Assembly (NCBI GenBank): GCA_031763025.1
Contig: JASSKH010000010.1
Location: 9,193,427 to 9,257,426 of the forward strand
Source: Macrocystis pyrifera
Taxonomy: Eukaryota > Sar > Phaeophyceae > Laminariales > Laminariaceae
Reading direction: 5' to 3'
Length of the DNA stretch: 64,000 nucleotides
Shown here piece after piece: positions 2,498 through 56,831 of this stretch. The notes under the pieces are model-generated. The model searched no databases. It worked only from the letters and a program-made list of their open reading frames with translations, and was not told the DNA's origin. Position 1 is the first letter of the stretch. Every line of letters starts with the position of its first letter. The translations under genes and the position numbers were made by a program.

Positions 2498-2739
2498 GTG
2501 AGTGTGTTGGTGGCTTAATGGCCTTCACAGCGAACGGAACGTTCCCAGGTTCGGTGTTCTCGAAAACCGATTTTTTATTAATTTCTGGTGTTGTTTCGAA
2601 TCGAATGTTTTTTTTTACGGCGGTGGTGACGAATACAGTATTTGTTGATGGATTCGTGGGGAAACAAGGTGTCGATCCGTTGCTGATGCTGTTTGAATCG
2701 AAGGTTCGACGGCGGTGGTGGTGGTGGTGCCGTAACTAT

Positions 2740-2850
2740 GTGACCGTTGAGAGTAGACCGTTGCCGCCGGTTAGTATGTGACCGTTGAGAGTAGACCGTT
2801 ACCACCGGTTAACATGTGACCGTTGAGAGTAGACCGTTGCCGCCGGTTAA
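2740..2850 (+). repeat. 34-bp tandem repeat, three copies
   Basis: GTGACCGTTGAGAGTAGACC followed by GTTGCCGCCGGTTA, repeated three times with few changes. Confidence 0.8.
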
Positions 2851-3508
2851 CGGTGAAAATGGTGGAGTGCCACCCGTGGTTTGGTGCCTTGGTTTTTTTT
2901 TTTTTTTAGTCTTGGTTTGTTTTTGGTTTTCATGACGATCGGTAGTCGCTATGGGTTGGGGCGAAGGTGTCTTGCACAGCAGCTAGCTATGTACGTCGCT
3001 CAGGATTTCGGCGTGTCGGCAGGGAGTCGTGGATATGGCTCTAGGTGCTGCTGCTGCTACTGCGTACGAACGAGTTGATCCTTGTTCGGCGGTCGGTAGT
3101 CGCTGGGAGTTAGTGCGATTGCTGTCGGGTTCATAAAAGGCGGACCGTTATGTTGTGATGCTTTCGGTTCTATTTTTTTTTCGTGGCATTTGTGTTTTCA
3201 GTTTTTCGTATCCTCGAAAAATACGGTCCTCGCGGTTGCTTGCGTTTAGTAAATACATGACGCCGGCACGTCTTCAGTTATAGTTTTTTTTCATCATTTT
3301 CTTCGAACGGGAAGGTTCCAGGATTTGTTTTGGCTGCAAATGTAAGGACCGTTTTAGTATCGATATGACTAACCAAGCATTCCATATATTTTCGGACATA
3401 ATGGTGTACGTTTTGATACCTTTTATAATGCGAGCATTACTCGTATTCAATTTTTTGGCGGAGTTAGAGCGTTACGGGGATATGGGACGAACGAGGGAGG
3501 TGGGGGCG

Positions 3509-3605
3509 GGAAGGATGTACTCATGTCATGCATGGCCGTAGTCGTACTGCCGTAGACCCTCGCATCCCCTACGGTGCCGGGACGAAGCACGTGGGGTGTT
3601 TTTAA
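3509..3605 (-). mobile_element. Poly(C)-tailed repeat, truncated
   Basis: Reverse orientation: TGTACTCATGTCATGCATGG, then CCGTAGACCCTCGCATCCC and CCGACCAGGCAG. A G-rich stretch (3485-3508) is at its 3' side. Confidence 0.65.
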
Positions 3606-4169
3606 CCGACCAGGCAGCGGGGAGGGTGGGGAGGGGTCGTTTGGCCCATAGTATTTACGGTCGGGCGTATTTTTCAGTTGTCAAAATAAGTTTGGTTCCA
3701 CCGATTTCATTAACGGTAATGTTTATCCTCAAGAGCGCTGATGATACGGGCTGTATACCCATTCCATTGACGGTAAAGTTTATCCTTGAGAGCGTTGACG
3801 ATGCGGGCTGTATGTGCGTAGCTGCGCGGTGCTGTCGATAGTCCCGTCAAATTCCGCATGAACAGCAACAAAAAGCAAAATCAGCGATGACAGACAGGAC
3901 ACGAGGTTTTCCCGCCAAAAGTGCGTTTTAGGCTTGTTGGGTACAGTAGGGGGGAATGTAGAAGAAGAGAGAACGGCTATATGTGCATGCTTTTTTGTGA
4001 CACGCATGGCACGGACGGACGAACGGGTGGATGCTTGTGCACCGGACACTCACGAGAGTTCGTAGAGAGCTATGTGTATTTCTGTTGTTTTTTTGTCGGT
4101 GCCCGGGACGGTTTTTGCGCCGCGCCTGCCTGTCCCGCTAAGCTGAGCAAGGGCAGATGGTTATCGAAG

Positions 4170-4207
<38 letters not shown>

Positions 4208-4436
4208 GGAGGAGGCAGAGGGGGGGAGAGAGGGACGGAGGCAGGGGAGTAGGTCAGCCCTTGCTTGCTCGGAGGGAGAGAGGGAGGCAGGGAGTAAGTC
4301 AGTCCTTACTTGCTCCATTTTGTTTTTTTGCAGCATACGAAAACTAGACACTCCTGGTACAGGAGCAAGTGCGTGTGCCTACAGCAGTCCTGGACATTCC
4401 AATACCAGTTTAGTGCACACCCTTCTGGACCGAGTA

Positions 4437-4540
4437 TTACGCAAGACCATAGTAAATAGGACCTACGGTACACACTAAAAATTGCATGTGTTCCTATTTT
4501 TAATGACAATATTTGTTCTATTTACTATGGCCCTCCGTAA
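4437..4540. mobile_element. TA-flanked palindromic MITE, copy 1
   Basis: TA|TTACGCAAGACCATAG ... CTATGGCCCTCCGTAA|TA. Inverted ends of about 30 bp, 104 bp long. The GTAAATAGG subfamily. Confidence 0.75.
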
Positions 4541-4639
4541 TAGTAAGGGGCGTCTGGCCTTCATGTTCACGGCCAAACCCTCCTCGTGTTTCCGGACACA
4601 GTGGTAAGGAACAGGAATGCCGGCCCCACCACGGGCTAT

Positions 4640-4765
4640 TTTCAGGGATGTTCACGAGTCGGGTCAAACCTCGCGGGTCAGGTCGGATAACGGTGACCGA
4701 GCCCGATCCGTCTGACTTTGAGAACCTCCTGACACGACCCGACTCGACCCCACCCGATTTTTTTC
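4640..4765. repeat. GGGTCGGGT-type repeat with TTTGAAAACTTCCTGAC module
   Basis: Contains TTTGAGAACCTCCTGACACG and CGACTCGACCCCACCC. The same module pair recurs, in longer form, at 44690-44950. Confidence 0.6.
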
Positions 4766-5501
4766 CTGCACCGACCGGCTGGTTGGGAGTCGTGAACCGC
4801 GAAGAGCCGTGGTAGTTTTCGCTGGGGGGGGGCGGGGTGTGTTCTGCACGTCCAAGATATAGCGGGGCGAGTTGACTGCTTCTGGAATTATTGTTTTCCT
4901 GTGTAAAGTTTCAGCCCCCCCCCCCTTTTTTTTTTCTTGGCTTTCTTATTTTAACGCTCGAAGTAATCTTTGTTTCTTGAGTGTACATTGGTTGGTGCCT
5001 GGGGTATGTGTACCGTGCCTGGTGCCATAAGCGTCCCATCCTGTCAACGTTGCTGTTACCGTTGTTGCTGCTGCTGCTGCTGCTGTCGGAGGTAGCTCGT
5101 TTTTAAGGAGAAGAGGTGAGGACAGACGAACCGTCCTCGTCGTACTTGAGAGCGTAGAGGGAGCTAGCAAGCAAGCAGGGACGAAGAAGGGATGGGATGG
5201 GGAGGAGGTTGGGCGGTCCTCTCTTGCCTGTTGTTTTTTGGCATTTCTCGGTTTTTTTCTCTCTCGCCCGGTTGTCAGCCCATCAGGGAAGACGAGGGAA
5301 GGTGGGGGGGGGGGGGGTTGGTAGTTGTGGGTGATGGGACTGCTGAACAAATTTTTGTTTTGCTTTGCTGATGAGTCGCGGGCAAACCAGGTAGAGTTTA
5401 ATTGGGAGTGAGCACGGAGTGAGCACAGCAGTAGAGCAGTGGGACCGATTCTGTTGATTGAGATGTACTGCAAGTGGCAGTACTGGAGGAGCGGGGGTAG
5501 G

Positions 5502-5604
5502 GGGGTGTACTCGTTATCATGCATGGCCGTAGTCGTATGACCTTCCTAGACCCTCGCATCCCTACAATGTCGGGACGGGGGGGGGGGGGGGGGGGGGGGG
5601 GGGG
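5502..5604 (-). mobile_element. Poly(C)-tailed repeat, truncated inside a G tract
   Basis: GGGGGGTGTACTCGTTATCA through CCTCGCATCCCTACAATG, then a 27-base G tract where the rest of the element should be. Confidence 0.7.
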
Positions 5605-8237: not shown

Positions 8238-8396
8238 ACATACATACATACATACATACATACATACATACATACATACATACATACATACATACATACA
8301 TACATACATACATACATACATACATACATACATACATACATACATACATACATACATACATACATACATACATACATACATACATACATACATACA

Positions 8397-8428
<32 letters not shown>

Positions 8429-8438
8429 CATACATACA

Positions 8439-8470
<32 letters not shown>

Positions 8471-8528
8471 CATACATACATACATACATACATACATACA
8501 TACATACATACATACATACATACATACA
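8238..8528. repeat. (CATA)n microsatellite, about 290 bp
   Basis: Nearly perfect tetranucleotide array with two CATATA interruptions. All the long Tyr/Cys/Met-type open frames here are artefacts of it. Confidence 0.98.
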
Positions 8529-19500: not shown

Positions 19501-22500
19501 GAAAATGGCCGCTTCACATACGCCTGGGACGAATTTTCGGAGCTGAATATCTCCAAAGCAGGGGGGGGGGGGGGGGTGTACTCGATAGGAGAGATGTACT
19601 CGATCTCATGCATGGCCGTAGTCGTATGACCATAGACCCTCGCATCCCTACAATGCCGGGACGGAGCATGTCGGGTTTTCACCGACCAGGCAGACATTGC
19701 TTGCACCAAGCGCGAAGCGCCGTGAGGTGTCCGGCGAGTCGCATGAAGGGTGAGCTGCATCTTACGAAGAACCGCTTGTGAGGCGGACGTGCATATGGAT
19801 GACAGCTTCAATTAGTTAGTTTAATTTCCGGTGTAGCCAAAGCAGGGGGGGGGGGGGGAGGCACACACAACAACGAATTTTTGGCGGCTTTAGAAAAACC
19901 TCGACCATACCTTTTTTTCGCCATAAAACGCATCGCTCGGCGTTCGTTTGCACCTCCCTCGTTTGTCGAGAAGAAACCAGCTTCGAAATTCGTTGGAGGG
20001 GGTGTGTTATCTTATCACCCGAGCGTGATAGTGTGATACGGTATACAAATATGCGTGTGCGGTAGGTAGCCCTCTACAAAATGACTCCGCGACAGGGGGA
20101 AACAAGGGGAGTCATATTTTTGCCCACTATTTTTCGCCCACATACCGACCGTATGCGGCCGGTACCAACTCTGATGAGGGACGTCTTATCCAGAACGCAC
20201 TATGTTGCCCTCAAAGGGGCAACGCACTATCACGGGGGTCCATAGTTAATAGGACCTATGGTATACATAAAAACCTATATGTTTACATATTTTTACAACA
20301 ACAAAATGTGGTCCCATTAACTATGGACCCCCGCAATAGGGCTTGTTCTCGTTCTGGGAAGAATACGGGTTTCGTGTGGATGCCGTTTTCCGCCCCTAAG
20401 GGGTTGTCTGTTCTTTGGGGACAACGGGTATTTTCTCCGTCGTATTCTTCGGGAGGAAAACGGGTTTACTATGTGTGCCGCGTTTTCCAGCCAGAAAAAA
20501 AAAAAGGGTTTAGTTTTGTTTTGTCGTGCTCTGGGCTTGAGCGTCTACTAGATAGCATGCGCTTCAACTAGCGGGGTATATTCGTTGAATAGTGCTGGGA
20601 GAGAACGAGTATTTTCTGCGTATGCCATTTGTTTGATTTTGACCTCAGCGTTAAGAGGTCTATGCCGCTCAGAAACAGCGATAGAAGGCGTATGGTGGGG
20701 GGGGGGGCGAGGTGGAGTATACTCGTGTCATGCATGACCGTAGTCGCTTGACTATAGACCCCTACATCCCTACAATGCCGGGGCGATACACGTCAGTTTT
20801 TCGCCGGCCAGACAGACATTGCTTTGCTTGCACCAAGCGCGGAGCGAAACATGACGTGCTCGGCGAGTAGCAAATGGAGGGTGAGCTGTGTGTGGTGGGG
20901 GGGGGGGGGGAGAAGGGCGCGGTGGGCCGGTATGTATGCTCTCTCATGTAGGGAGAAAGACGGAGCGAAGCCCGCGCCAGGAGGCCTACAAAAAGGCTGA
21001 ACTCAGGAACGCTAAACGGGTACGAAAAAGCTGCAGAACGCCCATCTCACTGTTTTGCGGTGGGGACGTCATACTATCTCCTCTGCCATGTTGTTGTTGC
21101 TACATCAGGCGGTGGAACGCGGGATGGAAGGGGCCGCATGCATGACGGTAGCAACAGCAGGCGGGAGCTGCATGGCTTTGGAGGCGTCTGTGGAGGAGAG
21201 CTTGGTGCTCATGGAGCAAGAGGTTCGGCTTGCGTGTAACCGACCCAAAGCTTTTTTTTTTGGCTACGCGTCTTCTTTTACCGCGTCAAAGGCGACCCAG
21301 GCCTGTCCCCCATGGGCTCAGAATCGGTGATGGATTTTTGTTTTTTTTTGCATTTCCGGGATCGTTTCACAAGCAGACGCGATGTATGCATGTTTTGGAA
21401 ACCTTTTATTAAGCATGTTATGGTCAGTACTAAGCAGAGATATATGCTCCCTTAACAAGGACATATGTACCATTCATGAGGTCATATAAATCCCGTAGAG
21501 CAACGCAATTGAAGTATCGCACACGGCTTGAAAAAAAAATTATAAATTTGACGAAATCCTCGATCTCACAGCCGATGTGTATTTCTTTCAAAAAATTATG
21601 TTAATGCCGGCACGTTTCATGTTCGAACGCCCTCTTGCTAGACCCCTGCGCCTCGTCTATTATTTGTTGCCACTGAAGGAAAGAAGCACACGCCTGGTGC
21701 TACGGGGTGCGTGTATACGTACCTGCATTGGTTGAGTGCGCCCCGTCTTGCCGCCGAGGGAAAACTTGACGCAAAAAACGCCTCCCTGACCGGAAAGCCA
21801 GCACGCTTCTACTGATGCCTGCCGGAACCTACAGTAGCTAACTGTTCGATACGAAACGCCTAGCCCCCGCCCCGCCCCACCCGGTTCAGTTTGTTCGCTC
21901 GGAGGCTCGGAGATACGTACGTACGCACGCATGTATGTATGTATGCACGGGTCTAAGTTTCCCAATGCTCACGGCCAAAAATGGTTGTGTGACATCTGGG
22001 ACAACAGGGATGCCAGCAAGGCAGGAGTGAAAAACAAGCTTGCTGTTGACGCTTAAAACGCTTCGAACAAGCGGTAAACCCCCCCCCCCCTCCCACGCCT
22101 TACCCCCCCCCCCGGGGCGTGCACGCGCGCGTGGATCCCCCCCCCCCCCTCCGTTCCACTCGACACTGTGTTTTATATGCTAGAAAGTCCGCCTTACAAG
22201 CGGTTCTTAGTCAGATGCAGCTCACCCCTTCATGCGACTCGCCCAACACCTTACGGTACTTCGCACTTGGTGCAAGCAATGCTTGCCCAGTCGGTGAAAA
22301 CGCCAACGTGCTCTGTCCCAACTTTTCAAGGAGGCAACGGTCAATAATCGTACGACTACGGCTACGCATAACATGAGTACACCTTCCCCCCCCCTCCCCC
22401 CCCTCCCGCCCGACCCTCCCACGCCCCGCCGGCGGTCGCCGATCGTACATGTGCGCGTAAATCCCCCCCCCCTCTCCTCCCTGGTCGGTGAAACTCCGAC

Positions 22501-24816: not shown

Positions 24817-24852
<36 letters not shown>

Positions 24853-27386
24853 GTACTCGATCTCATGCATGGCCGTAGTCGTATGGCCATAGACCTCCAA
24901 TGCCGGGACGGAGCATGTCGGGTTTTCACCGACCGGGCAGGCATTGCTTGCACCAAGCGCGAAGCGCCGCGAGGTGTTGGGCGAGTCGCATAAATAGTGA
25001 GAGCTGCATCCTACTAAGAAGCGCTTGTGAGGCGGATATTCTTGCACATGGATGACAGCATCAATGAATCGGTTTCATTTCTGGCGTGGACACTTCCAGA
25101 GACAGCAATGGGTTTACTATGTAACTGTCTCGTGGGTGCCTCACCATATACACACGACGTAATACGATCATCACTCATTTGTTGCTTGCCTTAGTCATCT
25201 GACCAATGACCACGCATCCCTTTCGAGACGGAGCGCAATTGGGGGGACGAGGGGGGTAGCGATGCACCATGCTTGCAGATAAGTACACAGAAGAGAAAAA
25301 CGCCTCAGAGCTCAGAGGTTTCTAAGGGCACGCAGGTATTACGCGTGTCCATCAAATTTAAATGGTCCGTCGCCTGCGACTATTATTGCACGCTCGCTAT
25401 TTTTTTTTCGATTGATTGGTTGATCGTGAATTGGTTGGTTGATTGATTGATTGGTTGGTTGATTGATTGGTAGCGGTTGGTTGGTTGACTGGTTGATTGG
25501 TTGATTGGTTGGTTGGTTGGTGGGCTGGTGCATTGAGTGATTGTTTGATTGATTGGATGATAGGTTTATTGCATACGGGGAAGGGGGGGCGAGGGAGAGG
25601 GGGGGGTTGTCGGAACCAAGCGTCTTCAAATGAAAACTGGTTTTCAGCTGGATGCGTTTGTTGGGTACTGCTGTGCGCTGCGTGCAGATATCAGGCACAT
25701 TCCGGGAAACTGAGCTCCGACCGGAGGAATCCCTTAACCTGAACGTCCCCGCTCACCCGCCCCCCCCCCTCCCCCCCCCTCCCTCTTCCCCCCCACCCCC
25801 CCTCCCCCCTCCCCCCCCCCCCCCCCTCCCCCCCCCCCCCCCCCTCCCCCCCCCTCCCCCCTCCTCCCTCCTCCGCCCCTCCCCCCGCTCTCTCCCCTCT
25901 CTCTGCCCGCTCACACCTGCATGTATCTTTGCGGCGTTTCCGACGACCATTCCAAACAACTCTCAACCTATCCAAAATGTAAAACAAATGGCGATGGATG
26001 CGTGCAGAGAAGCTTCGGTGATGCACGCCATGTACGAGAAAAAGCTTGCACTGCAGGCGGAGAGTTACATCCAGCTCAAGGTCGCCTACGAGGAGCTTAG
26101 CGAGGTATCAACACTGTACCGGCCCTCATTAGCAAGCGATCCCCCAATGGGAAAGTGTCCCTCGATAGAAAAAAAGGTCCCTCGATAAGAAACTGCACCT
26201 CAACAAGAAACTGTGACTCAATAAAAAACTGACCCTCAATAAAAAAATGTCCCTCAAAGAAAACCTATCCCTCATTAAGAAAATGTCTCTCACTGAGAAT
26301 TTTTCCCTCGATAAGAAACTGGACGTCAGTGAGAAAAAGGAATTCGAAAAGAAGTTTTACCACAATAAGAAAACGCACCAGAATGAAAAACTGCCCTTCG
26401 TAAATATTTTTTCCCTCGATAAGGAACTGGACCTCATTAAGAAACTGAAATCAAAATGAGACCGACCCTGAAAGAGAAACTGATCCTCCATAAGAAAATG
26501 GCGCTCATTGCGAAACTGTGTCTCAAGAATAAACTTTCCCTCAACGAAAAACTGGCCCTGTGTAAGAAACGGCCCTCAGTGAGATAACTGGGGTACTGGT
26601 CCGGGCTACCTTTCTTATATAAGAAAGGGGTGTCTTCCGCAGAAAAATTACTGCAATATAACCACTCTCAAACTTCTTATTTTTTCGGTGAATCTTGACC
26701 TGGCTTTCTTGTGGGTCTCTTTTATGGCAGGTATTACGGGGGGCCATAGCAAATAGGACCAAATATTGCTAGTAAAATTAGCCAAATGTATAGGTTTTTG
26801 TGTAGCCGTAGGTCCTATTAACTATGGCCCCCCGTAACAGTGTACTACACTAATGCAGGACGGCCGTTGTGTACTCGTACTGCAGTGACAAATTGATCGT
26901 CGCTTTATCTCGTACCAATCTGGCCGATAATATAAGATTTATCTAGTGTTGTTATCAGAGCGCAATCGGGGACAATATTCTCGTTTGGGTTAAGAAGTGG
27001 TAGGTATAGACTTTGGGATTAGGGAGGTTTTCCTGCTGCGATCAGTCGGAGCCTCTCACCCAGGGGTTGCTTCGATGGCGATCAACGCGGCACCTCGTTG
27101 CAGAGAGTGTATATACAGTAGTTGCTCCGGGCGCGAAAAGTAGGCCGGAAAAACACAGTAGCACTTTTATTGTTACTCTGATTGCCATCGTGCAATGTAC
27201 AGCATGAATTCTAAAGCTTGATCACTCGTACACATTTCTTAAATATTCCCTAATAAAGAAAGAAAACACAGCGAAGAAACGAAACAAAATGAACACCCAT
27301 CGTAGTGACTCCTTTACCCTTCCTTTTTTGTTTGCCGTCTCACTGTGTCGCCCCTCTCATACGACTACAGCCGGGCATGACATGAG

Positions 27387-27435
<49 letters not shown>

Positions 27436-30400: not shown

Positions 30401-33400
30401 AGGACGCTGTCCAAGCGCATGGACCAGCAGTGCACTCGCGAGGTATACGTAGCAGATACCAGGTACCAGGTAGAAAATACCACTCTGTCTGTAAATACAA
30501 GAAACTCTGTTATTGATATTGAATAAAATGTGTGCCTATGTTTTGGAACATAGTGGTAGATGTTGAGCCGGAAGTACTGCTGTAGGCACACAAGGGAACT
30601 AGGGCCGTGCTCATCATCGAATAAAGTTTATTTTCTCTTTCGCGGGACCCATGTAATCAGTACGCAGGACCCACCATATACACAAAAACCTATATATTCC
30701 AGTATGTTTACTTCCATCATGTTTGGTCCTTATTACTATGTTCCCCTGTAACACCCACTTGGTTTATTTTTCAAGAAAGCGCGTGTATGTAGACAGTGTA
30801 CAAAGGCGCTCGACGTCTGCTGGAAATCGTAGGAAACCTACAGCAGTAGCCCCTCCTCGTTCCGCCCGAAGAAACATGCTAGCCATACCATTTCAAGATA
30901 CATACGGGAGGGACGATACTGTCTGTGTGATGACAGCAATATAGTATCACTATTACGGGGGACCATATTAATAGTAAATAGGACCGAATCTTGTTAGCGA
31001 AAATAGGTAAATGTATAGGTTTTTGTGTATGCAGTAGGTCCTATTTATTATTGTCTCCCGTAATATGTATTTTTTGCTGATTGTCGTAGCATATATACTC
31101 GTATGCACATTCCAGGTGGACGCGGTTTTGTCGCTAGCGACGGAGAAGGAGAAGGCAGAGCAGCTCGAAGCGAGAGTTAGAGCGCTGGAACAAGAGGTGG
31201 GTCGGTGGCTGGGTCGACGTATGACACCACCGCTTGCATTCAATTTCTCAGGAAGGGAGGGGGGAAGGGAAAGGGGTAAGGAAGAAATCATATTCATGGA
31301 AGGCCTACGCTGCGACGCCTTGTGCCTCTTGGGGACCTCTTCAGGTGGGGGAGGGGGGGGGGATTGACGACACAAAGCGACGAACGACCACAGCAGCAAA
31401 GACCACTGCATGATAGGGATGGTACAAATCATCGTCCCGAGTTCCAAGTTAAGGAGGCGTTCGTACCCACGGCACGGGCGCTGCATGTTCACAAGCGTTA
31501 CCAACCACTGTTTTGCTAGCTATCTCGGGGTTATTTTATAAAATCATGCTATTGTATCGGAGGGCCATAGTAAATAGGACCTACGGTAGAGACAAAAATA
31601 TATATATATTGACCTATTTTTACTAACAATATTTAGTCCTGTTTACTATGGTCCCCCGTAAAAAATACTGTAGTTGAAGACATTAATTAGTTTGCACCCT
31701 CTGAGGCACACGATCGGTGGGGAGGGAACCAAGGTACGAGGGGAGGGGGGGGGGGGGGGAGGAGAGGGTTGTTTTTTTTTTTCTGCTTCCAATTAGACGC
31801 GAGTACACTAGGGCAACCCAGGACTCAAGTGTTTTTCTAGGGAAAACAATGAAAGCACCATCTGTAGTGGAGAGGGGGGAGGAGAGCCTGCCATGTGACT
31901 GACCCCGATCTGAGTTACGATTATTAATAGGAGGAAGGGAGAAAAGAAGGGAGAAGACAATAGGTGGGAAGATAAACAGTAAACACAAACTTGACCACGA
32001 ACCACTACTGTGGCCTACTACAGCAGTCTACTTGATACAACGTAGAACATAGTCTCCGTTTCGGCTCTGATATGAAAACATCAAAATAGCAAGGGGGCAT
32101 ACGCAATCGGGGCCAGAGAGTGGTGAGAGTTTATCGATAACACAAACCAGGTAAAAGACTGCACCTGCCACCAGGTATCAAGCGTTCTGGTTGGATTTTC
32201 GTTCCTTGTTTTAGTTTTCTTCAACACGTAGATAGGTTTTCTTGGTATCCGGGGATTTCTTCTTTCAGGAATGTTTTGATCGATCAACGGTGAAGCTCAT
32301 CATGCTGCACACTGATTGTCGGATGCCAAGCCCAATAATAATACAATTAAGGACCGTTTGCGTGTGGTCTTCATAGTTAATTCACCCCATCGGTTTCCTT
32401 GCGTTTCCGTCCGAACGCCTCACGGCGCTTCGCGCTTGGTGCAAGCAGTTTCTTCCAAGTAGTGGTCGATGAAAACCCGACGTGCTGCATCCCAGCAATG
32501 TATTCTAGGGATGCGAGGGTCTACGGCCATACTGTACGACTAGGGCAACGCATTTCAACGAGTACCCCCCCCACACCCCCCAGCTATATTGTATACCTGG
32601 TATATATTTGTATGGGTTGGGTTGGCGACGGTTGGCGACGACGCGGCAATACACGCCTCTCACTGCGTGAATTAGACAGCCAGGGTACCGTTTTTGTTTT
32701 TTTTTTTCGCGGTTACCACGGCTGGCGGTCGAGTTAGATCGTTTTTTGCGCGGAGAGAACCTTAACTCCGCACAAGGGGGATGATCGTATCACGTAGTGT
32801 GTATATATAGTAAAGGCACCCGCGAGGCAGTTACGTAGTGAACCCATTGCTGTCTCTGGAGGTGGTCACACCAGAAAATAAATATATTAATTGACGCTGC
32901 TGTCATCCATATGCAAGAAAACCCGCCTCAATAGCGGTTGCCAGGAGGATGCAGGTTACCCTCCATGCGACTCGCCCAACACCTCATGGCGCTCCGGGCT
33001 TGGTGCAAGCAATTTCTGCCTGGTCGGCGAAAAGCCGACGTGCTCCGTCCCGGCATTGTAGGGATATGCGAGGGTCTATGGTCATGCGACTACGGTCATG
33101 CACGACAATGAGTACACCCCCCCCTCGCCACACCCCCACCCGCCCCCTTCAGGTTCGGACGAAGGCGCAACGTTTGAGCGAGTGGGAGAACATGACAGAC
33201 AAACAGAAAACCGCCGTCATCGAGCTGGAGAAGCTCAAAAAGGCATTGACCACGCAGGCAAGCAATTGCATGCATGCACCTGTAGCGCTGCGGGATGTTC
33301 GTATACGACTCGTACGAAGAGGTCGTCAGCTTGTGTTCGTTGGATCCCGGACGGTCGGTCGATCGATCGCTTCAGCCATTTCGACAGGGGACGTGCACGT

Positions 33401-34921: not shown

Positions 34922-37900
34922 AATGTTGTATAAATTCAAGAGCAAGTCAGCGAGTGTAGCACAGCGACAACGATCACCGTAAAGATTATTCGCCATTCTT
35001 TTTTCGGACGTTGCATCATGTATGTTTTCTCTCAATTTGCATTCTATTGATTGTTCGAACACTGCTGTACACACATGGCAGTTAGAGCGCCTGGGGTCGT
35101 CAGTACCCCCTGTCCAATACGTCCTGCTACTGCTGCCAACATTTCAGTACGCTATTGATACGTACACCCCACATTCGTGCGTACGACAACAGCAGTAGTA
35201 CTACTACAGTAGGTATGTATTACACAGCAGTAAAATAGTGCCGAATCCTATACTGGCATATAATATGTATATTATAGAAGTGCAAAATATGGCCAGCCCC
35301 CCATGACTTTCCGTCGGTCGTGTCTAATTAGTATAGTGGTCAGTACACCACATTGTGGCTGTGGAAACCCGAGTTCGATTCTCGGATTGGACATCGATTT
35401 GCTTTTTATTTTCGTGAGTAAACGCGGCGCGAGTGTTTGCCTCTCTCCTTTTTTACTGATGATACCTTTCGATAGAAAATATTGATTGATCGGGCAGAGC
35501 AGGATTCGTCATGCCATCCACTACTACTACTGCTTGTTGTACTGGTACTACGCCTTGCTGTTGTTTCTTGTGGTGTGCTGTTGGTTGTAGCGTGACAAGA
35601 GGGTATCCTGCTGACGGCGGCGTCATACAGACAGCAGTGCGTTATTAGACCAAACAGAAGGAGGAGTGCATTATACAGAGAAGCAGTAAATTATACAGAA
35701 ACGGTAACGACGCATTACACAGAATACAGAAGCACTGCATTACACAGCGGCAGCAATGCATTATACAGCTATACACAGCCGTTTCGGGTATGCACATCAC
35801 TTGAAATACTTGAATACCTCGTACTACTTTACCTACATAGATACGTACGTACGTACAGAGCAAAAAAAATCTGCACAGGAGTGCGATATACCGTAGTATT
35901 ATTGGAAGCAACAACGACTTTTGGTTGGCCTGCCCGGTTTCAGCTCGATGAATATAATACTGCAGCAAAGTCTACCTCATAATATGTACGTGCGTCATAA
36001 ATAGCTAGCTGTACCAGGTACCAGGTAGCAAGCGGTAATGCGTACCAGGTGTAGCACTGAATTACATAGGAATTATCATCGATGAATAGTCTGCACAGCA
36101 GAGCTAGCTGTACCCATCTACACGACGAGTACAAGGAAGGACCAAAACGAACGACCCGAATGCTTCTGTGGCCTTACGTACTTATATTGTTCTTGTTTCA
36201 TGATGCATGATTGATATTCGGCAGCACCGAGAGTCCCTACTGAAGGCGGCGGCAACGCGCGTGATGGCCGTACTCGACTCGGCCAACGAGAGGGATCACT
36301 GGCTCGCCGCCAAGAAGCAGGCAAGGGAAAACACCAAAAACGAATTATCAAAAACTGAACCCCCCCCCCCCCCTAGCGTTCGACTACTACGGCCATGCAT
36401 GATATCGAGTACACTCCGCCCTTTAGCAATGCCTCGCTAGTCGGTAAAAACCCGACGTGCTCCGTGCCGGCATTGTACAAGGGTGCGAGGGTCTACGGTC
36501 ATATATTGATTACGGCCATGGATGACATGAGTACACCCGCCCTCCCCGCTCACGGCAGGTCTACTGTGGCGCCTCTCACTACGTGAGCTAGACAGCCAGG
36601 GCACCGTTTTGTTTTTGCGGTCACCACGGCTGGCGGTCGAGTTAGATCATTTTTGTGCAGGGAGAACCTTCCCTCCGCACAAGGCGGATAATCGTATCAC
36701 GTAGTGTGTATATGGTGAGGCACTGACGAGGCAGTTACATAGTAAATCCATTGCTGTCTCTGAAAGTGATCACACCAGAAAATAAATCAATTCATTGACG
36801 CTGTCATCCATACGCAAGAAAATCCGCCTCAAAAGCGGTTCTTAGTAGAATGCAGCTCACCCTTCATGCGACTCGCCCAACAACACCTCGCCACGGCGCT
36901 TCGCGCTTGGTGCACGCAATGTCTGCCTGGTCGGTGAAAATCCGACGTGCTTCGTCCCGGCATTGTGGGGATGCGAGGGTCTATGGTCATACGATCGCGG
37001 CCATTCATGACAATGAGTACATCCCACGGCAGGTCATTTCGATACAGCGATCGTCTTCGTTGGTTTACATGATGATCTACCTAGTTGTTGACTGCTACTT
37101 TCATACGCACAGCTGATACGACTGATACAACTCATTACCAGGTACTTGATATACCAGGTACTTGATACAACTCATGCAAATCATACTACACCACTTATGC
37201 AATCCCTTCAACCCATGCAGCTCATACAACTCATACATCCTTTGCAACTCGTACACCAATCTAACAGGTGGAAGCGATAGTTCTTCCGATCTTGGAGAGA
37301 GATGTGGTCGACCTTGACCCCGACGAGTTCGATTACCGCTCATGCAACTCATGCATACAACTCATACAACTCATACAACTCATACAACTCGTACAACTGA
37401 TACCAATCAAATGCCTCATACAGTATAGGCCCACCAATGAGAAAGCAACCAACAAGAGCGTAATAATGCTCACTTTTCGGAGAACGCTAAAAAATAGGGT
37501 TAAGAAAAACGGCTCAGTGGAGAACTATACACTAAATCCTTCATATTAGCCTACGCTCAAGGTTGTTTGAAGATGGCGCCCCAATAAAAATCTCAGGCTT
37601 GCCCTGATTACTCGCATGTGTTTTTTGTTGGCGGGCCAACGCTGTACAACCCTCACAGTTCCTTCAATCCCAACTACTAAGACAACTGATACAACTCATA
37701 CACCAACTTGACAGGTGGAAGCGATAGTTCTGCCGATCTTGGAGAGAGGCGTGCTCGACGAACTTGACCCCGATGAGGTCGCAGCGGAGCAAGCACGCCA
37801 GCGTACCAAGATGCAGGTGAGGGGCAAAGATGCCCTTCATACAAGTAGTATGTTTTGCGTTTGCCGTCGGACAATGTGCAGCACCATGAAATGTCTTCTT

Positions 37901-40900
37901 CGTTGATCACTCAGAAAGATTCCCCCGAAAATAAAGAAAACCAAGGGAAAAACCAAGGCCTCCACAGTAGTTATATTGTCGCCCAGGAAGACTGCATAGA
38001 CTCAGAGGTTCCAGGGTTTGAAAATACTGCTGGGGGGGATGCACCGTTGAAGTACGTCGAGAAGGCATTTCTCGTGAGAGGAAGACGCGGAAAAACGTGC
38101 TCCAGAAGGTCAGCCTCACAACCGATTCTTAGTAGGATGCAGCTCACCCTTCATGCGACTCGCCGAACATCCTACGGCGCATCGCGATTCGTGCAAGCAA
38201 TGTCTACCTCGGCGGTGAAATCCGACGTGCTCCGTCCCGGCGTTGCAGGGATGCGAGTGTCTATGGTCATTCGACTACGGCCATGCATGATATGAGTGCC
38301 CCCCCTCCGCCCCTCTCTCTCTGCTTCTCCGCTCCTTTCCTAGCCAACAGCGCCCAACAGTTGTTACCCTTTGCTTCCATCCCCGCTCACATCCCCCCCC
38401 CCCCCCCCCGCCGCCGCCCCCGCCCCCGCCACATGAAGGAAAGCATCTACAAGATGCGTGAGGCGTTGCGCCGAGAGCACGAGAGCAGCGAGCAGCAGAA
38501 TATTGTGCGCATCGGGGAGAACCTGGAGCTGACCCGAGATCTCAACCACGTCCGAAAGAAGAATGCTGTCTTGGAGGCTGTGATCGTTCGACTCGAAGCT
38601 GATATCAAGGTATTTAGTTCAACTGACATACCAGGCACTGTAAACCGCCATGGCTGTGAGTTGGTTTACCACTACAACCATAGTTGTGTGGCGAAGTAAA
38701 CGCACTGTAGTACGTAACTGTCTTTAGTATTCATTACTAAAGATACGGCCAACGCACCAAGTATCTTACAGATAACACGTCGCCCACGCACATCACACGC
38801 AGACGACACCATTTCCGCCAGACACTCTCCGTCATCGCCCCTCACCCCCTGCTCCCACCCCTCCCCCCACCCCCCCCCCATCCCCTCCCCCTTCTCCCCC
38901 CCCCCCTACTCCCCTCTCTACTTCCTCCCTCCTTCCCTCCACTTCCCCCCCCACCACCACCTACCCACGGGGGTGGTGTACGCCTCTCATCTCCATCTTC
39001 CCCGCTCATCATGCTTTCTAAACAATGACCAAAAGTTCGACAAGAACGCAAGGAGGAAGAGAGCCCGAGCCGCCGCCCGCAACTCCAGCTCCGCCCCGGA
39101 GTTCCTCTCCGCTCTCCACCACCATCACCACGGGGGCGGCGGCATGGCTCTCCTTGGGAGCGGTGGTGGCGGTGTTGGAGGGGGGGGGACGCTTGTCAGA
39201 AGTCCCCTGGCGAGCCTCGCGAGCCTCTCCTCCCCCTCCCCCGCGGATCCCGGCGGCTCCGCTGGCAGTGGTCTTGCCGGCGGGGGACACCCGACTTCTT
39301 TGATTCCGCCGCCCCGCCTTATTCTTAACAGCAACGCTGACAAAAGTATTGGCCGCAGCCTGGATGAGACCAATCGTGTCTTGATAGCGTCCTCGTTGGG
39401 CGGTGAAGAAGAAGCAGAAGCGGAGCAGCTGCAGCACCTAGCACCCGACGGAACATCATCATCATCAGCAGCAGCAGCAGTAGCAGTGGGTGGCCAGCTG
39501 CGAAAACCGCTTCAACCTCAAAACATCGGCGCATCTTCACTAACACGGAACGATCCTCGGAGCAGCGATCATCGGAACGATCCTAGGAACGATAATCTCG
39601 GTCTCCTTCACGCTTCTTCTCCTGCTGCTAGCCACGGCGTGGTCCAGGGAAGGGCGGCGACAGCCCTCCGACGCGGGCTTGACCCGCGCGATAATGTCAA
39701 CAGCGCAGGAGTAGGCGGAGGAGGAGGAGAAAGAGGAGGGAGAGGAGGAGGGGGAACGGTTCGAAAGTTCCTGGACGTCGGCTACAACAAATATCCGGAA
39801 GAAAAACAGACGACTCCCGGATCCGGGGGCACGGGGGGCACGAGGTGGGCGAGGTGGCAGGCCGACGACGACAGGGGTGACCAACGGGGTGCGTGTCTTG
39901 TTGCCCGGGGAAGGCGCCCGGGACTACTCGGCGTTGCTGAGGGGCGCCTCGGGGCTGAGAGGGAGGGAGCTGGAGTCGAGGGCGGCGACAGCCGAAGCGG
40001 AGGTGCGCTTTTTTCTATGGTGTTGGTATCAGGAGAGCGGGGGGGGGAGTACTCATTATTTGTTGATTTCCCTAGTCATTAGACCGTTGAGCACGCATCC
40101 CTTTCGAGACGGGGCACCGTTCCTACTCCTATTAGATTGTTATTTGTCGCGTGAACTGTGCGTTCACCCCCTACTTACATCCCGCCTCCTCATGTTTTTA
40201 TAATGATATGATAGTCATCGTACACCTACCCTGTTTTTTCCATGTCAGACTATTACGGGGGACCATAGTAAATAGGACCTACGGTACACACAAAAAAATA
40301 TATATTTCGCGGTTTTTACTAACAATATTTGGTCCTATTTACTATGGTCCCCCGTTGTAGACGTTCCGGTTAAATTACACTGGTGCGCTACGAATGCGGA
40401 AGGCGATACACGAATATCCTCTGGATATACAATACATATCACCGGTTTCGTTTCGGAATACACTTTACTAATGGTTTCATTCAGTACATGGTAGTGCACG
40501 ACCATACACCTCGCCAAACACCTCGCCAAAAAGTAGCAAATTGCAAGAGAGGTTCATAGGCATGGGTTTTCGCCTTGCCCGTACCACAAGCACATTAACA
40601 TAATCGTCGAGAGATTGACGTATTCGCTCGTGCACCACCCAGACACACGGGGTAGTCCCCCCCCCCCCCCCGCCCCGACGAGACAGTTGCATAGTAACCC
40701 CATTGCTGTCTCTGTAAGTGGCTACACCAGAAATGAAATCAATTCGTTGATACTGTCATCCATATGCAAGAAAATCCGCCTCTAAAGCGGTTCTTGGCAG
40801 GATGCAGCTCACCCTTCATGCGACTCGCCCAACACCTCACGGTGCTTCGCGCTTGGTGCAAGCGATGTCTGCCTGGTCGGTAAAAACCCGACGTGCTCCG

Positions 40901-43854
40901 TCCCGGCATTGTAGGGATGCGAGGGTCTATGGCCATATGACTACGGCCATGCACGATAATGAGTACACCCTCCCCCCGCCCGCCCCGACCATCCCATCAG
41001 CACCGCTCACTGCTTATCCCCGCCGCTCCCCCTGGTCACGCAAGAAAGTCTGCATCAAAGGCGCTTCTACAGGATGCAGCTCACTCTTCATGCGACTCGC
41101 CGAACGCCTCACGGCGGAGCTTCGCGCTTGATGCAGGCAATGCCTGCTTAATCAGTGAAAACCCGACGTGCTTCGTCCCGGCATTGTGGGGGCGCGAGGG
41201 CCTCTGTGGTTATAAAACTACGGCCATCCATAACATGAGCACCCCCCCTCCCCCCCCCCCCCCCCCCCCCCCCCCGCTTCTTCTCGAAAAGGATGCGTGG
41301 TCAATGGCCCAATGACCTAGGCGAGCAACGAATGAGTCCCCCCCCCCGCCCACCCCCCCCCCCACCCCCCACCCCCCCCCCCCCGCCGATCCCCACAAGA
41401 ACCCTATTAACACTATGATCGTAAATATAAGGAACATTTATACATCAATATGAAGACCAAGCGCTCCTTCTATTTACGGGGAGAGCTGTTAATCGGCAGG
41501 ATTTCACGGGAAAAAAAGAAAGTAATCTGATCTAATCGGTAGGTAGGCGCCGTTAGCTGGCTAAACACACCTGATTTTTTTCGCCAAGTCAGGTGACGAA
41601 GCTAAAGCCGTGCGCCAAATCCTCTTCTCGTATGGAACGCCCCATCCATCCGCGCCGCTGTCCGTAGATCATTGGCTGCTGTTACAGTTACTAGCAGCCG
41701 ATATTAACCACAGTCCTGTTTAGGAGACAAACCAGTCAAATTATGAATAGTTTGTCGCCGAAAACGGGACTGTCATACTAAAAGGGTTAACTTGAGTAAG
41801 TCCTAAATCCTGCAGCAGTGCCGACTCGGAGCTCTAGTTACAAGGCTTACCTCTGGGTCCATTCAACACACGACCCTTGCTAGAATTGCACTGCTGCTGT
41901 ACAGATCGGTCCAATTTCGAGCCGTTTCACAGAAACGGGACTGGCTGACCGCGATCCTCCACAAAACAACTAAAAAAAGCTCCCGTTTTTCGCTGCTACC
42001 TTATCAGGCGAGCTTCCTAGCTTTCGAAAACCATCGAATTGCGGCAGAGGGAAAGCGTGCGGTCAAGGCGGTCGAGGCCGAAGCTGTGAAAGCTGTCGGC
42101 GCCCTCAGCGCGGAACTGCATAAACTCCGAACACACAATAACACCACAAATGCGAATAACACCATGAACACCAATAGTAACACTGACTACGGTGCTGGAG
42201 GGTTTCCTAGTGATGATATACTCGGCGGATGTTCCTGGGGGATGGCGGAGAAAGCGGAGATGGCGGCGGCCACGGACCTCGGGGGGGGAGGTGCACGTGA
42301 CAGGTATGTGTGACAAATGTGTGTATTTCGCGCGTATCATATTGTTGTTATTGCGTTGATTTGCCATCCTTTCGAAGTTGATCACTCAGAAACACCCCCC
42401 GATAAAAGAAAAACCAAGAGCTACCTATCATATTATTGTTTTCTTGCGCTCCAAACATGCGTGGCATGAGCTTCAACGTTGATCACTCAAAAGCATCCGG
42501 GAAGAAGAAAACACGGAAACATTTTTTTTTTTTGTCTGGGTGTGGGGTTGCTAACCCTATCCCTCCCTCCGCCCTCCGTCACATTTAAGGGGCCACCCGT
42601 CCGCCCGTGTGTAGGGTTGGGTACGCCTTACAGCCCTATTCCTATTGAACCCCAACCCCGACCGCCCCGGAAAATTATCCGAGATATCATAGAAATTTCT
42701 CGGAAAGGAGAGGTAGTGAGGAGTTTGTGTATACTAACAACCATTGTGTCGACCACTTTGGACAGAAAATGTAAGGACCGTTTGGTCTTCGTATGGTCAT
42801 GCCATTGTTCAAACGATCCTTATTTTTTTCCGTCAAGACTGTTGCTACGTACTGTACCAGGTATATTTTAGTTTCTTTTTTTTGTTTCTTTTCTCTTTCG
42901 AATTGTCTTTGTTTTTGTTTTTGTTTTTTCTCTTTGTTTCGTTTTTGTTTCTCTAGGTCATGGAATGTGTATGTCGTGCCTGTCGTACGCAGTATCATGA
43001 CATGGCATTGCATTACATACGTGGCAACGTAGTATCTCTGTGGCGTAGCTTTGTGACCACAGAACTTGTATCTCTCTATTAATAGGATTGAAGAATCGGC
43101 ACGGACACTGGTTGTGCTGGATGTCGACGCGTAGAAAGAACGGTTTAATGTGAAGAAAAAACAACAACAACAACAACAACAACAACTGTGTGGTATACTG
43201 GACTAGTCCTATGTTGCAGGACGACTGATCGGCACAAAACTTTGTGCCGGGTGTGGGATCTTTTTATTGGACAAGGCTGTGGCCTTTCGGTCCGGCTCGG
43301 AATTTTTCTGGATAAACGACACCCAAACACTCGGCGGAGCCGCGTGGCTGACCCTGCCGACCTCGATCCCCCCCAAAGGGTTCGGGTTCGGGTTCGGGTT
43401 CGGGTTCGGGTTAAAGGGAGGGTTAGGGCTGGGGTCAGGGTGAGGCCTGGGGTCGGGTTCGTCTGGGCCAACGTGCTTCGTTGAAACTGACCACGCACGT
43501 CCTGCGCAAAGAGTTGTGCCGATCAGTCCTGTGGACTATAGCGAGGGCTGAATGGAGAGTTTGCTTTCGAGATTTTCGACTTGGTCGAGCGAGCCGAGCA
43601 ACGATTTGCTGCATACCTGGTACCTGGTCGTATATATATATATATATTGTCACACGCTAAAATCGTCGGTTAATTTTCTGCCACCCGCCGTTGTTTTTTT
43701 AATTTTCCTAATGCATTGTTGTTTTAGCAGCCGAGAAAAAGGCGTTGCGGGACTGTCAGAATCAGAATCAGAATCACCAGCAGCAGCAACAGCAGCAGCA
43801 ACAACAACAGCAACAAGGGCGTCTGTAGCGACAACCGCAGGAGGACAAAAACCC

Positions 43855-49297: not shown

Positions 49298-49499
49298 GTT
49301 TTCTGGAGAAACTCACTTGGAGCTGGAGTGGGTTCACGTTTTTTCAGTGGTAAACAGGTTCGTAAGTTCAAAGGCAAAGCCGCATCCCCAGTAGCGTACC
49401 GTAAGAACTAGCATGCTACCAGGCATGTACTACGGTACAGCGACACCCGACGACTCAAAAACAAATCGTAGCCGCAGAAGCCGAGTAAAGCCAGCACGG

Positions 49500-49553
49500 G
49501 GAGGGAGGGGGGGGGGGGGGGGGGGGAGGGGGGGGGGGGGGGGGGGGGGGGGA

Positions 49554-49622
<69 letters not shown>
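49500..49622. repeat. G-rich tract ending in 67 uninterrupted G
   Basis: About 120 bases of G broken by a few A, the last 67 uninterrupted. Length in a consensus sequence is unlikely to be exact. Confidence 0.85.
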
Positions 49623-53032: not shown

Positions 53033-54192
53033 CTGGGGGGGGTGGGGGGCGGGGGGGGGAGGCGGGATTGTACGGTATATGGGGAGGGCGGGTGAGTGGG
53101 TAAGTTGGTGGGTGTGTGGGAAGTTTTTTGACAGGTGGATGGATGGCTTTGTTAGTGGTGGATGGGTGGATTGTTGTTGGTGGGTGGGTGGGTGGGTGAT
53201 CGAGGTTTGGTCGGATCGGGGCGCGTCGGGGTAGAGTTTGGTTGAGGAGGGTTCGGTTGGTGGGGTTCGGCCGGTGGGATTCGGTGCGGTACACTGGCGG
53301 CGTGCCTACGGTCTCATATATCGTTTAAAACTAAGGTTGTACAACGGTTAAAGGTGCCGCACAGCTTCACATGGCCTATAAATGTCGGGCAGTTAAAGGT
53401 TACACGACGGTTTAAAAGCGGAAGAAAAATAAAAAAAAAAAAAAACGATAAAACATCGGTATATCACACCAGGTACCGACTAAATGTTGGTTACGATAGT
53501 AAAGGTTCAACAGGTACATGACGTTTTTTTTATCGCTCAAACGCCGGTGTCGTGTCCGTGTACTCCGGTAAAATATCGGATGAACATCGGTCAGCGCCGG
53601 TACAATACCGGTCAAAGAAGGTACAATATCAGTTCAATATCGGTACATTCCGGCACAGTACCCGCGTACAGAAGTATTCGTCAACGCTTCCACAAACAGT
53701 AGGGGAGGTGCAGCACCAAAGGATCCCCCCTCCCCTCCACAAAAAACTAAGCTAAAACAGAACCCATCGACACACTCATCGGCCCATCGGGGCAAGACCG
53801 TGCCCTCCGAATCCCACAGCTACACGTAGTATAAACCACCGCCGTCGGCCTGTCGAGCTCGGTTCCCGTCCCCTTACACCGTTTGCGCAGGCGCGCCGAC
53901 TGCATCAATACGCATCATTCCAAGAACTAGCATGAGTCATTGTGACCAATCACCACAGCGGCCAAACCACAGTAATACCCTCGAGAGTACTACCCCATGA
54001 GACAGACGGTGGTCACAAAAGGCGAATCAGGAAGGAGATAAGAGAAGCACACAGTGTTCAATGTCATATATGGAAAAAAGCGCATTTAGAGCATGAACGT
54101 TTGCGGTGTTTCTACAAGGACTTCGGACGGTGCTCCGTCTCGAACGCGATGCGTTGTCAAACGCCAAGCAACCAGGCCAAGCAACAAATGAG

Positions 54193-54239
<47 letters not shown>

Positions 54240-56831
54240 TGCGACTTGCAGAACACTTCACGGCGCTTCGCGCTTGGTGCCAGCAATGGCTGCCTGGTCG
54301 GTGAAAACCCGACGTGCTCAGTCCCGGCGTTATAGGGATGCGAAGGTCTATGGTCTTACGAATACGGCCATGCATGACATGAGTACAATCTATCTCCCCC
54401 TTCCTCCCAACCCCTTCTCTCCCCCCCTCCCTCCGTCTCGAAAGGGATGCGCGGTCAACGGTCAAAAGACTAAGGCAAGCGACAAATGAGTACGCCCCCC
54501 CCCCCCCCCCCCCAGCCTTCCCACCCCCCCCTCCAACCCAACCTCCCGAATGTTCTCCACCAAGCAACTTCTCACCTACGGTAAATCCCCCGCGCGCTCG
54601 CCGTAAGACTGCCGCTGGCGCTGCCACCACCGCCTCCGCCGCCCCCGCCGCCTCCGCCCGACCCTCCTGTGACCTCTCCGACACTGCTCGACATCTCCGC
54701 GTTCATGCTGCCGCTCGACCCCGCCACCTGAAACGCCATGCTGTCTCGTGAACGCCCGTCCGAGCTAATGGACGACGTTTCAACCATGCTCCCCACCGGC
54801 TCCTCATCCGGGGGAGGCTCCAGCACCGAGATCTGTCGGTGGAAAGACGAAACGGGGGGGGGGGGGGGGGGTGTACTCATTATCATGCATGGCCGTAGTC
54901 GTATGACCGTGGGCCCTCGCACCCTTGCAATGCCGGTACGGAGTACGTCGGGTTTTCACCGACCAGGCAGGCATTGCTTGAACCAAGCGCGAAGCACCGT
55001 GAGGTGCTCGGCGAGTCGCATGAAAGGTGAGCTGCATCCTACTGAGAACCGCTTTAGAGGCGGATTTTCTTGCATATGGATGACAGCATCAATGAATTGA
55101 TTTAATTCCTGGTGTGGCCACTTCCAGAGACAGCAATAGGTTTACTAAGTAACTGCCTCGTGGATGCCTCACCATATACACACTACGTGATACAATCATC
55201 CTCCTTGTGCGGAGTAAAGGTTCTCCCCGCACAAAAATGATCTAACTCGACCGCCAGCCGTGATAAGAGCCCATCTTAACGGGGAACGCTGAACTTCGTT
55301 AGTTGGAAATAAAACTTCAATTTCGATGAATTTTAATTTGATTTCGAACAAAAAACGTGTTTGTATCCTATCGGGAAACGGCACATTCATCGTCAAACAA
55401 AAAGGAATTCGAAACAACCTGGAACAACGCACCGCGTCACACAACGCCCAGCCGACAAGCAGCGACGAGCGTACACGAGAGCGAAGGTGTGCGTTGTCGC
55501 GTGCGCGCCGCCGCCAGTTTTTTTTCTTCTTTTTGGTGGCGCAGGATAGGAAGCTATGACCCTCAGGGTGGCGGGGGGAGCCCTCAAGCGCCACGTGCGG
55601 AACAGCAACGGTGATGCAGCTATAGAGGTCTCGAGCGTATTCTCTGTGTTTTTGCTCGTTTGCTCGGTTTTCGTGATGGTTGGCCGATCGAGCAGGTCGA
55701 AAAATTGGGCTTGCGGCCGCCATGATTTCTTTTGAGGCGCCACCGCCGGGATACGATGTGCTATGGTCTGTGGCCGTGAGCGCGGCTATTGCTCCGGTCG
55801 CCTGTCGTCGAGGTTCGCGTTTTATCGCCTCGACGGTGGTCACCGAAGCGGCCAAGAATCACCCCAGACTCCACCCGGGGGTGTTGACCCACCATGAACA
55901 TGCTACATCAAGGCAGATCAACTCCCAAATTCAAAATTGAAATTAAAAAAATCACACGAAAAAAGTCCCAAAAGACTTTCACTCAAATAGTTTTTTTCTG
56001 ATTTGCCCCTTCGAATCCTGCCTGGTCGTTCACTCTTCGGCTAATCAGATGCAAATTAAAATAGCAAAACAAAAATCAAATCAAATTGAAAGAACCAAAA
56101 GTCCTCGATAAGATGGGCCCTAACCGCCAAGAAAAAAAACAAAAAGAAAAAAAAAACGGTACCCTGGCTGTCTAGCTCACGCAGTGAGAGGCGTGTTTTA
56201 CAGCGTCGTCGCCAACCGACGCCAACCCAACCTATATATATAGGGGGGGGGGGGGGGGGGGGGGGGGGGTACTAGATAGGAGAGATGTACTCGATCTCAT
56301 GCATGGCCGTAGTCGTATGACCATAGACCCTTGCATCCCTACAATGCCGGGACGGAGCATGTCGGGTTTTCACCGACCAGGCAGACATTGCTTGCACCAA
56401 GCGCGAAGCGCCGTGAGGTGTCCGGCGAGTCGCATGAAGGGCGAGCTGCATCCTACTAAGAACCGCTTGTGAGGCGGACTTGCATGTGGATGACAGCATC
56501 AACGGGTTAGTTTAATTTCCGGTGTAGCCACTTCCAGAGACAGCAATGGGAGGGGGGGGGGGGGGGGGGGGGGGGGGCATTTCTGGCACCGAGACATCAC
56601 TATGGACAGAAATATAAGGAACACTCGGTATTGATATTTCTCTCTAGACGATCCTTATCTTAAGTCCAGAAAGAATGCTAAGCTGTTGGAGAGATGGAAA
56701 GGAGCGGAGAGAGGGGGGGGGGGGTGGGCGGGGGGGGATAAAGCTGGGACAGGGGGCGTTAAGATGAGAGGAAGGAGGGGGGGGGGGGGGGGGGTGCACT
56801 GATGTCATGCATGTAGTTGGATGGCCATAGG

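Follow-up and report, generated by a model that had tools for sequence, protein, structure and literature searches.

The window, by which we mean the whole stretch of 64,000 nucleotides of Macrocystis pyrifera DNA that was analysed, contains a full-length copy of a ~535-bp SINE-like element, located at about 32582-33115 of the forward strand, which ends in GAGTAC and is followed by a single A and C8. The first-pass annotation had placed a retroposon-like element at about 32605..33130; this element proved to be real, with its tail running from 33116. The copy, hereafter the title copy, sits within the tail of another copy at 32411-32572. Further copies of the same family and 3' fragments of a LINE are spread over the window, and both families together occupy 8.4% of its bases. 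Copies and fragments were located with BLASTN, nhmmer and alignment to the LINE, as given in brackets.

32582..33115, +: title copy, full-length SINE-like, ends GAGTAC; both ends match the LINE (BLASTN, nhmmer)
33116..33127, +: tail of the title copy: A, C8, TCG (sequence)
32571..32580, +: candidate duplication CCACACCCCC upstream of the title copy (score 4.4; C-rich, not proof alone)
33128..33137, +: candidate duplication CCACACCCCC downstream of the title copy (position-bound duplication search)
32411..32572, +: older 5'-truncated copy whose C-rich tail houses the title copy (BLASTN, nhmmer)
36570..37025, +: copy flanked on both sides by the duplication CACGGCAGGTC (BLASTN, duplication search)
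40674..40990, +: truncated copy with the duplication CCCGCCCCGAC (BLASTN, duplication search)
54864..55266, -: long copy, tail C18 at 54854-54871 (BLASTN)
19595..19834, -: truncated copy flanked at either end by the duplication C14+TGCTTTGG (paralogs L037 and L038 are unoccupied)
24828..25172, -: copy whose tail is C30 at 24822-24851; LINE 3' fragment 25173-25234 immediately upstream
27363..27435, +: very short remnant (~27-30 nt), then C46 from 27390
5500..5578, -: short copy starting right after C28 at 5577-5604 (BLASTN)
54233..54387, +: truncated copy inside the C46 tail of a LINE 3' fragment at 53990-54199 (BLASTN, LINE alignment)
54431..54497, +: 67-bp LINE 3' fragment, tail C19 (LINE alignment)
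56286..56550, -: truncated copy, start beside C26 at 56552-56577, tail C27 at 56243-56269 (BLASTN)
56141-56242: further copy abutting the C27 tail at 56243-56269 (BLASTN, tract survey)
40045..40136, -: LINE 3' fragment (LINE alignment)
41040-41267: SINE-like copy, tail C26 at 41250-41275 (BLASTN)
41276..41343, +: LINE 3' fragment right after the C26 tail at 41250-41275 (LINE alignment)

The window also holds an ACAT repeat at 8238-8528 (about 74 copies, 97% matches), telomere-like hexamer arrays (GGGTTA, AACCCT, GGGTTC) located inside the contig at 8950-9000, 23782-23851 and 43378-43412, and a tRNA gene at 35322-35393 (+; RF00005, 64.6 bits), the sole Rfam match, which is unlinked to the retroposons.

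Copies with a fixed 3' end

BLASTN with the title copy returned 23 pieces in the window, the title copy included, in agreement with the about 20 copies counted in the first-pass annotation. Using nhmmer, we obtained 51 matches in the window and 20 loci of up to 10 kb, and a second-round profile gave 101 matches in 33 sequences (321 kb in total); 96 of these matches extend to the 3' end. The family had been described as having a fixed 3' end and variable 5' ends. Indeed, 49 of the 51 nhmmer matches finish at query position 540 or later and their starts are spread over query positions 1 to 498, while the reverse pattern of coinciding 5' ends and varying 3' ends was absent. The motif GAGTAC+N+CCCCC occurs 10 times in the window against 0.07 expected, and GAGTAC, with or without one further base, in no case precedes five A, G or T there. 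Genome-wide (537,376,219 bases in 223 contigs), the exact 16-mer ATGAGTACACCCCCCC is present 3776 times, compared with 3 for the reversed control. Outside this genome, the search for the exact motif gave one match in IMG/VR (L040), with no surrounding element. About 0.32 Mb was examined in detail, and densities from the fetched loci are biased upwards, because these loci were picked by exact ATGAGTACACCCCCCC or RT match. Our data confirm an abundant and coherent retroposon system that is real in the M. pyrifera genome.

A subfamily of the SINE-like element carries a doubled end, GAGTACATCTCTCCTATC followed by GAGTACA-Cn or TAGTA-Cn, at 19561-19630 (-) and 56243-56300 (-). In addition, loci L005, L006, L009, L010 and L013 (on the small contigs labelled C19, C22, C5, C14 and C60) have one long segment in common, and in each of them the same SINE-like copy occupies the matching position; the segment is a duplicated repeat unit, and no Rfam match was found in L010.

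The partner LINE and the ends of the SINE-like element

Apart from the ATGAGTACACCCCCCC type, a second end type, GCAAGCAACAAATGAGTAC-Cn, was identified, some copies of which extend kilobases upstream and contain RT frames. A genome search with the RT piece of L011 gave 5264 first-look candidates, and the 150 scored ones were 83-100% identical. Eight LINE loci, chosen for long frames, were fetched; their main alignments show about 95-98% identity over 1-5.3 kb with differing start points, and among them are 5'-truncated copies that start at several points and have a common 3' end. The end in front of the C tract is GAGTAC, or GAGTGC (L036), in all eight loci, and the tract is interrupted in L033. 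The first-pass annotation had suggested looking for a LINE that shares the family's terminal motif and C tail, and such an element, an APE-endonuclease/RT LINE ending in AACAAATGAGTAC-Cn, was found in L029. It is about 5.9 kb long there (with an estimated 5' end), contains ~60-bp repeats in its 5' region and encodes a 1137-aa frame (1852-5262) with matches to Exo_endo_phos (E 9.6e-11) and RVT_1 (E 1.6e-29). In L029-L032 a TGA lies inside AAATGAGTAC, directly before the C tail, and a single frame runs from the RT to this TGA in L030, L031 and L032, the one in L029 being interrupted by a frameshift. The LINE thus has practically no 3' UTR, only a few bases and then the C tail. With RT and endonuclease in one frame, 5' truncation and target duplications, the partner is a non-LTR retrotransposon. 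The solved structures nearest to its protein by sequence are R2 and L1 ORF2p, and the Pfam and PDB matches do not resolve the clade. A very short 3' UTR and a simple-repeat tail are traits of the RTE/RTE-X clade; the LINE shows both (L029-L032), and by analogy we suspect that it belongs to RTE-X.

The last ~80 nt of the ~535-bp element align with the last ~75 of the LINE (76% identity in 83 columns, E 3.75e-9), as do bases 8-50 of the element with the LINE 5' end (91% identity in 43 columns, E 3.75e-9); for the middle ~375 nt no match was found in L029 and none in Rfam. Since the 3' ~80 nt and the 5' 43 nt match the LINE, the SINE-like element is best seen, judging from these alignments, as a putative LINE-derived non-autonomous retroposon carrying both LINE ends. 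The reported absence of a tRNA, 5S or 7SL head was borne out, as no copy in the window, L010 or L029 gave an Rfam match at gathering score. A strict SINE with an RNA polymerase III head derived from tRNA, 5S or 7SL was rejected on this ground and because the 5' 43 nt are LINE-like. This amends the first reading, in that part of the element's head comes, judging by similarity, from the 5' end of the LINE itself. The median pairwise identity of the 11 full-length copies is 0.83 (0.77-0.92), below the 95-98% of the LINE copies, and hence much of the SINE-like family may be older, in a comparison in which LINE copies chosen for long frames favour young ones.

Typical LINE and SINE-like ends, which are alike in sequence, are predicted to fold alike, with an outer stem GUGCUC/GAGUAC beside the tail and two inner hairpins. 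As an addition to C-tailed retrotransposition, and not a true rival to it, the LINE protein might recognise this folded 3' RNA in the manner of stringent-type LINEs, the C tail being secondary. In an alignment of 41 ends (a subset of copies, picked by regular expression), 92.3% of the predicted stem cells are paired versus 27-48% with slid partners, a control that favours any structure derived from these sequences. Furthermore, the 5' starts of 70 copies comprise 11 of full length, 14 at model positions 427-437, 8 at 460-463 and 37 elsewhere, and the 427-437 cluster, which includes ~65-69 bp LINE 3' fragments, lies at the 5' edge of the fold. It coincides with CTCCGTC, also the start of these fragments, and might reflect either an RT stop past the 3' structure or pairing of C-rich element bases with the C-tract at the upstream junction. 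On the other hand, covariation in the 41 copies was not above shuffles, RNAalifold gave a partly different fold, and the folding z-scores of seven copies ranged from -2.3 to +0.2, the predicted fold not being given by all. A conserved 3' RNA structure is therefore a prediction without statistical support, which we keep as an add-on hypothesis only; that the protein reads such a fold is tentative, with the odds somewhat below even.

C tails, C-tracts and target duplications

In 59 copies with a measurable tail, the uninterrupted C run after GAGTAC(N) has a median length of 7 and a maximum of 42, and is zero in 10. This wide variation, along with the interruptions sometimes seen, is what would be expected if the C tail were absent from the RNA and grew by slippage, either while a few Cs were being reverse-transcribed or afterwards in genomic DNA. 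Long uninterrupted tails are, however, present on LINE copies that are 95-98% alike, so any such growth must be fast; we consider this origin of the tails unlikely, and slippage in reverse transcription would also be compatible with the best explanation, set out below.

The first-pass annotation had explained many long G/C tracts in the window as tails. By proximity this holds for the three tracts that it named, including C46 at 27390, which is preceded by an element remnant of ~30 nt as claimed, but not for most of the 64 C/G tracts of at least 10 bases. Fourteen of these are tails, 10 of them tails only and 4 both the tail of one copy and the target of the next, so that chains are formed; 9 are targets only. 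The remaining 41 are without an adjoining copy (38 with nothing, 3 with a bare motif), as are 11 of the 19 tracts of at least 20 bases. Tails as the source of most long C/G tracts were thus rejected. No copy of either family was found beside C66 (45678-45743), C34 (49059-49092) or a G-rich run of 125 (49498-49622, longest G67), which may be independent C-tracts, or else tails left by decayed or different families.

We analysed the 5' flanks of 70 SINE-like and short LINE copies, after dropping 31 of the 101 profile matches (5 without the 3' end, 16 in the LINE interior, 9 already counted and 1 at a locus edge). In 47 of them a C-run of at least 6 is found no more than 25 nt from the 5' end, against a background of 2.0%, whereas a run of G, A or T of this length was found in none. 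Because the 5' ends of the 11 full-length copies were set by the C-run, the unforced count is 36 of 59 truncated copies. Likewise, in a first flank count at least half of the bases were C in 51 of 95 flanks and half were G in 0 of 95 (background 3.0%). The 5' flanks of the LINE are C-rich in 13 of 15 cases, namely in 11 of 12 first pieces (L008 and L033 gave no first-piece flank) and in 2 of 3 further ones; the exceptions are L015 and the long copy in L030, which directly adjoins a SINE-like end with no intervening C-tract. Five of the 12 LINE pieces (L026, L030, L031, L034 and L035) start in the tract after another copy's end motif. Insertions are concentrated in C-tracts and in one orientation, which places the LINE among target-specific LINEs. 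On the reverse strand of L030, near 2587, a truncated LINE directly joins a SINE-like end with no C-tract between them, possibly through an RT template jump or loss of the tract.

Target duplications were identified at several individual sites. The LINE in L032 has a clear one, CCCCCCCCCTCGTAACT on both sides (C9-TCGTAACT), and that in L031 is shorter. The duplications in L022 (CCCTCTGCAA), in L024 (CCCCCCTCCCG) and at window position 40673 (CCCGCCCCGAC) start in a C-run, while CACGGCAGGTC at 36570 starts with CA, outside any C-run. At the 19834 site, the joined flanks with one copy of the duplication (C14-TGCTTTGG) match a dispersed repeat at 72-75%. Two of its members, L037 and L038, continue across the site with no element inserted (L038: TGTGCCTGCCCCCCTTAAGGCATGCTTTGGAGG), and a third, L039, diverges there. 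Since L037 and L038 lack the insertion, the duplicated bases were once single, beside a C stretch, which in L038 is C6. A joined-flank search was carried out for the 19834 and L032 sites and revealed no unoccupied paralogs of the latter.

When all copies are taken together, the signal from duplications is modest, since a pure-C duplication is indistinguishable from the tail. The 106 entries comprised the 101 matches and five hand-entered LINE copies. A free search of 83 entries found 6 duplications at score 7 versus 5.7 expected, no excess. The position-bound search, which dropped 21 and kept 85 entries, gave 9 versus 4.0 at score 6 (shuffle maximum 8) and 5 versus 2.4 at score 7 (shuffle maximum 6). 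With C-runs collapsed, which dropped 31 entries, 7 of 75 versus 2.5 were found at 6 letters (P 0.008) and 2 versus 1.0 at 7 letters (P 0.27). Statistical proof from target duplications over all copies was not achieved.

These data bear on a reading in which C-tailed retrotransposition is real and insertion is not C-specific, the C at the 5' ends arising during or after insertion or reflecting a C-rich genome. The 41 of 64 long tracts without a copy do mark the genome as rich in such tracts, and a C-run of 6 is missing from the 5' end of 23 of the 70 copies. Nevertheless, the low background, the single orientation (C 47 versus G 0 of 70), the agreement of the LINE 5' ends and the C6 stretch at the unoccupied site in L038 speak against it, and we regard it as improbable. 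A DNA transposon, Helitron or spreading tandem unit, which the chains of copies resemble as arrays at first sight, was rejected as highly implausible, given the fixed 3' and scattered 5' ends, the RT-coding partner with the same end and the title copy's lack of inverted repeats at its termini (15-mers identical at 9/15 positions at best).

Proposed mechanism and related elements

We conclude, with a probability of about 0.85, that the LINE and its SINE-like dependant are poly(C)-tailed non-LTR retrotransposons that insert into C-tracts. Target-primed reverse transcription, put forward in the first-pass annotation, is supported by the fixed 3' end, the 5' truncation, the C tail and the LINE with the same end, and the one duplication with unoccupied paralogs fits it as well. 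Most likely the C tail of the RNA pairs with the nicked G-strand. The endonuclease would nick the G-rich strand of a C-tract, and the G-ending primer would anneal to the C tail of the RNA. The RT would then copy towards the 5' end, often halting early, and a cut of the second strand some 8-17 nt downstream would yield duplications starting in the C-run. The LINE protein presumably moves the ~535-bp element in trans. As the chains show, every insertion leaves a C tail that may later become a target. It is moderately probable that the elements thereby occupy a self-propagating niche, in which the tail of the RNA and the genomic target consist of the same mononucleotide, their pairing not only primes reverse transcription but also selects the site, and insertions build new targets. 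This would accommodate thousands of copies, nested chains and a shared 3' end placed inside the coding end of the LINE.

How a LINE chooses its RNA and its target is a long-standing question, and with a C tail and a C target, what tail:primer pairing contributes could be told apart from the A/T preference of the L1 endonuclease. Our data also name one source of C/G homopolymers and of C-tract insertion variation in kelp genomes. L1 and Alu likewise have a homopolymer tail and duplications starting in the matching homopolymer, and share only poly(A) with each other; in the kelp pair, C replaces A. LINEs that target repeats or microsatellites were reportedly described by Kojima and Fujiwara in 2004, and no repeat-targeting LINE is known to us that combines a C-homopolymer target with a C tail to match. 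In the open-licence literature searched, no poly(C)-tailed or C-tract-targeting LINE or SINE was recognised, and within that literature the combination of a poly(C) tail with C-tract targeting looks new. Insertion into repeated sequence, as described for the LINE Utopia (PMC4640811), is common to such repeat-targeting LINEs and the kelp LINE. With the stringent pairs of zebrafish ZfL2 and eel UnaL2 (PMC4176376, PMC3747384) the kelp pair has in common a 3' end shared by SINE and LINE; UnaL2 ends in TGTAA repeats, whereas the shared 3' sequence of the kelp pair lies within the LINE coding end and its fold is a prediction. Green-algal RTEX LINEs are similar in their short simple-repeat tails, but Table 3 of PMC3747384 gives the algal RTEX tails as (CA)n, (CAA)n, (CCAT)n, (ACAATG)n or (CTTGTAA)n, and (C)n is not among them.

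By analogy, the nearest kind would be a brown-algal RTE-X-like LINE with a SINE-like dependant. Ectocarpus harbours RTE-X LINEs together with RTEX-N1_Ec32, a ~600-bp non-autonomous family with a LINE-like 3' end whose 5' origin was left open (PMC12477816). The searched text of that paper makes no mention of a C tail or a C-tract target. Both systems thus pair, in a brown alga, an abundant LINE with a short non-autonomous family that has a LINE-like 3' end. They differ, in a comparison by description only, in that the 5' 43 nt of the kelp element match the 5' end of its LINE, which hints at where brown-algal SINE-like families may have obtained their 5' part, the point left open for Ectocarpus (PMC12477816).
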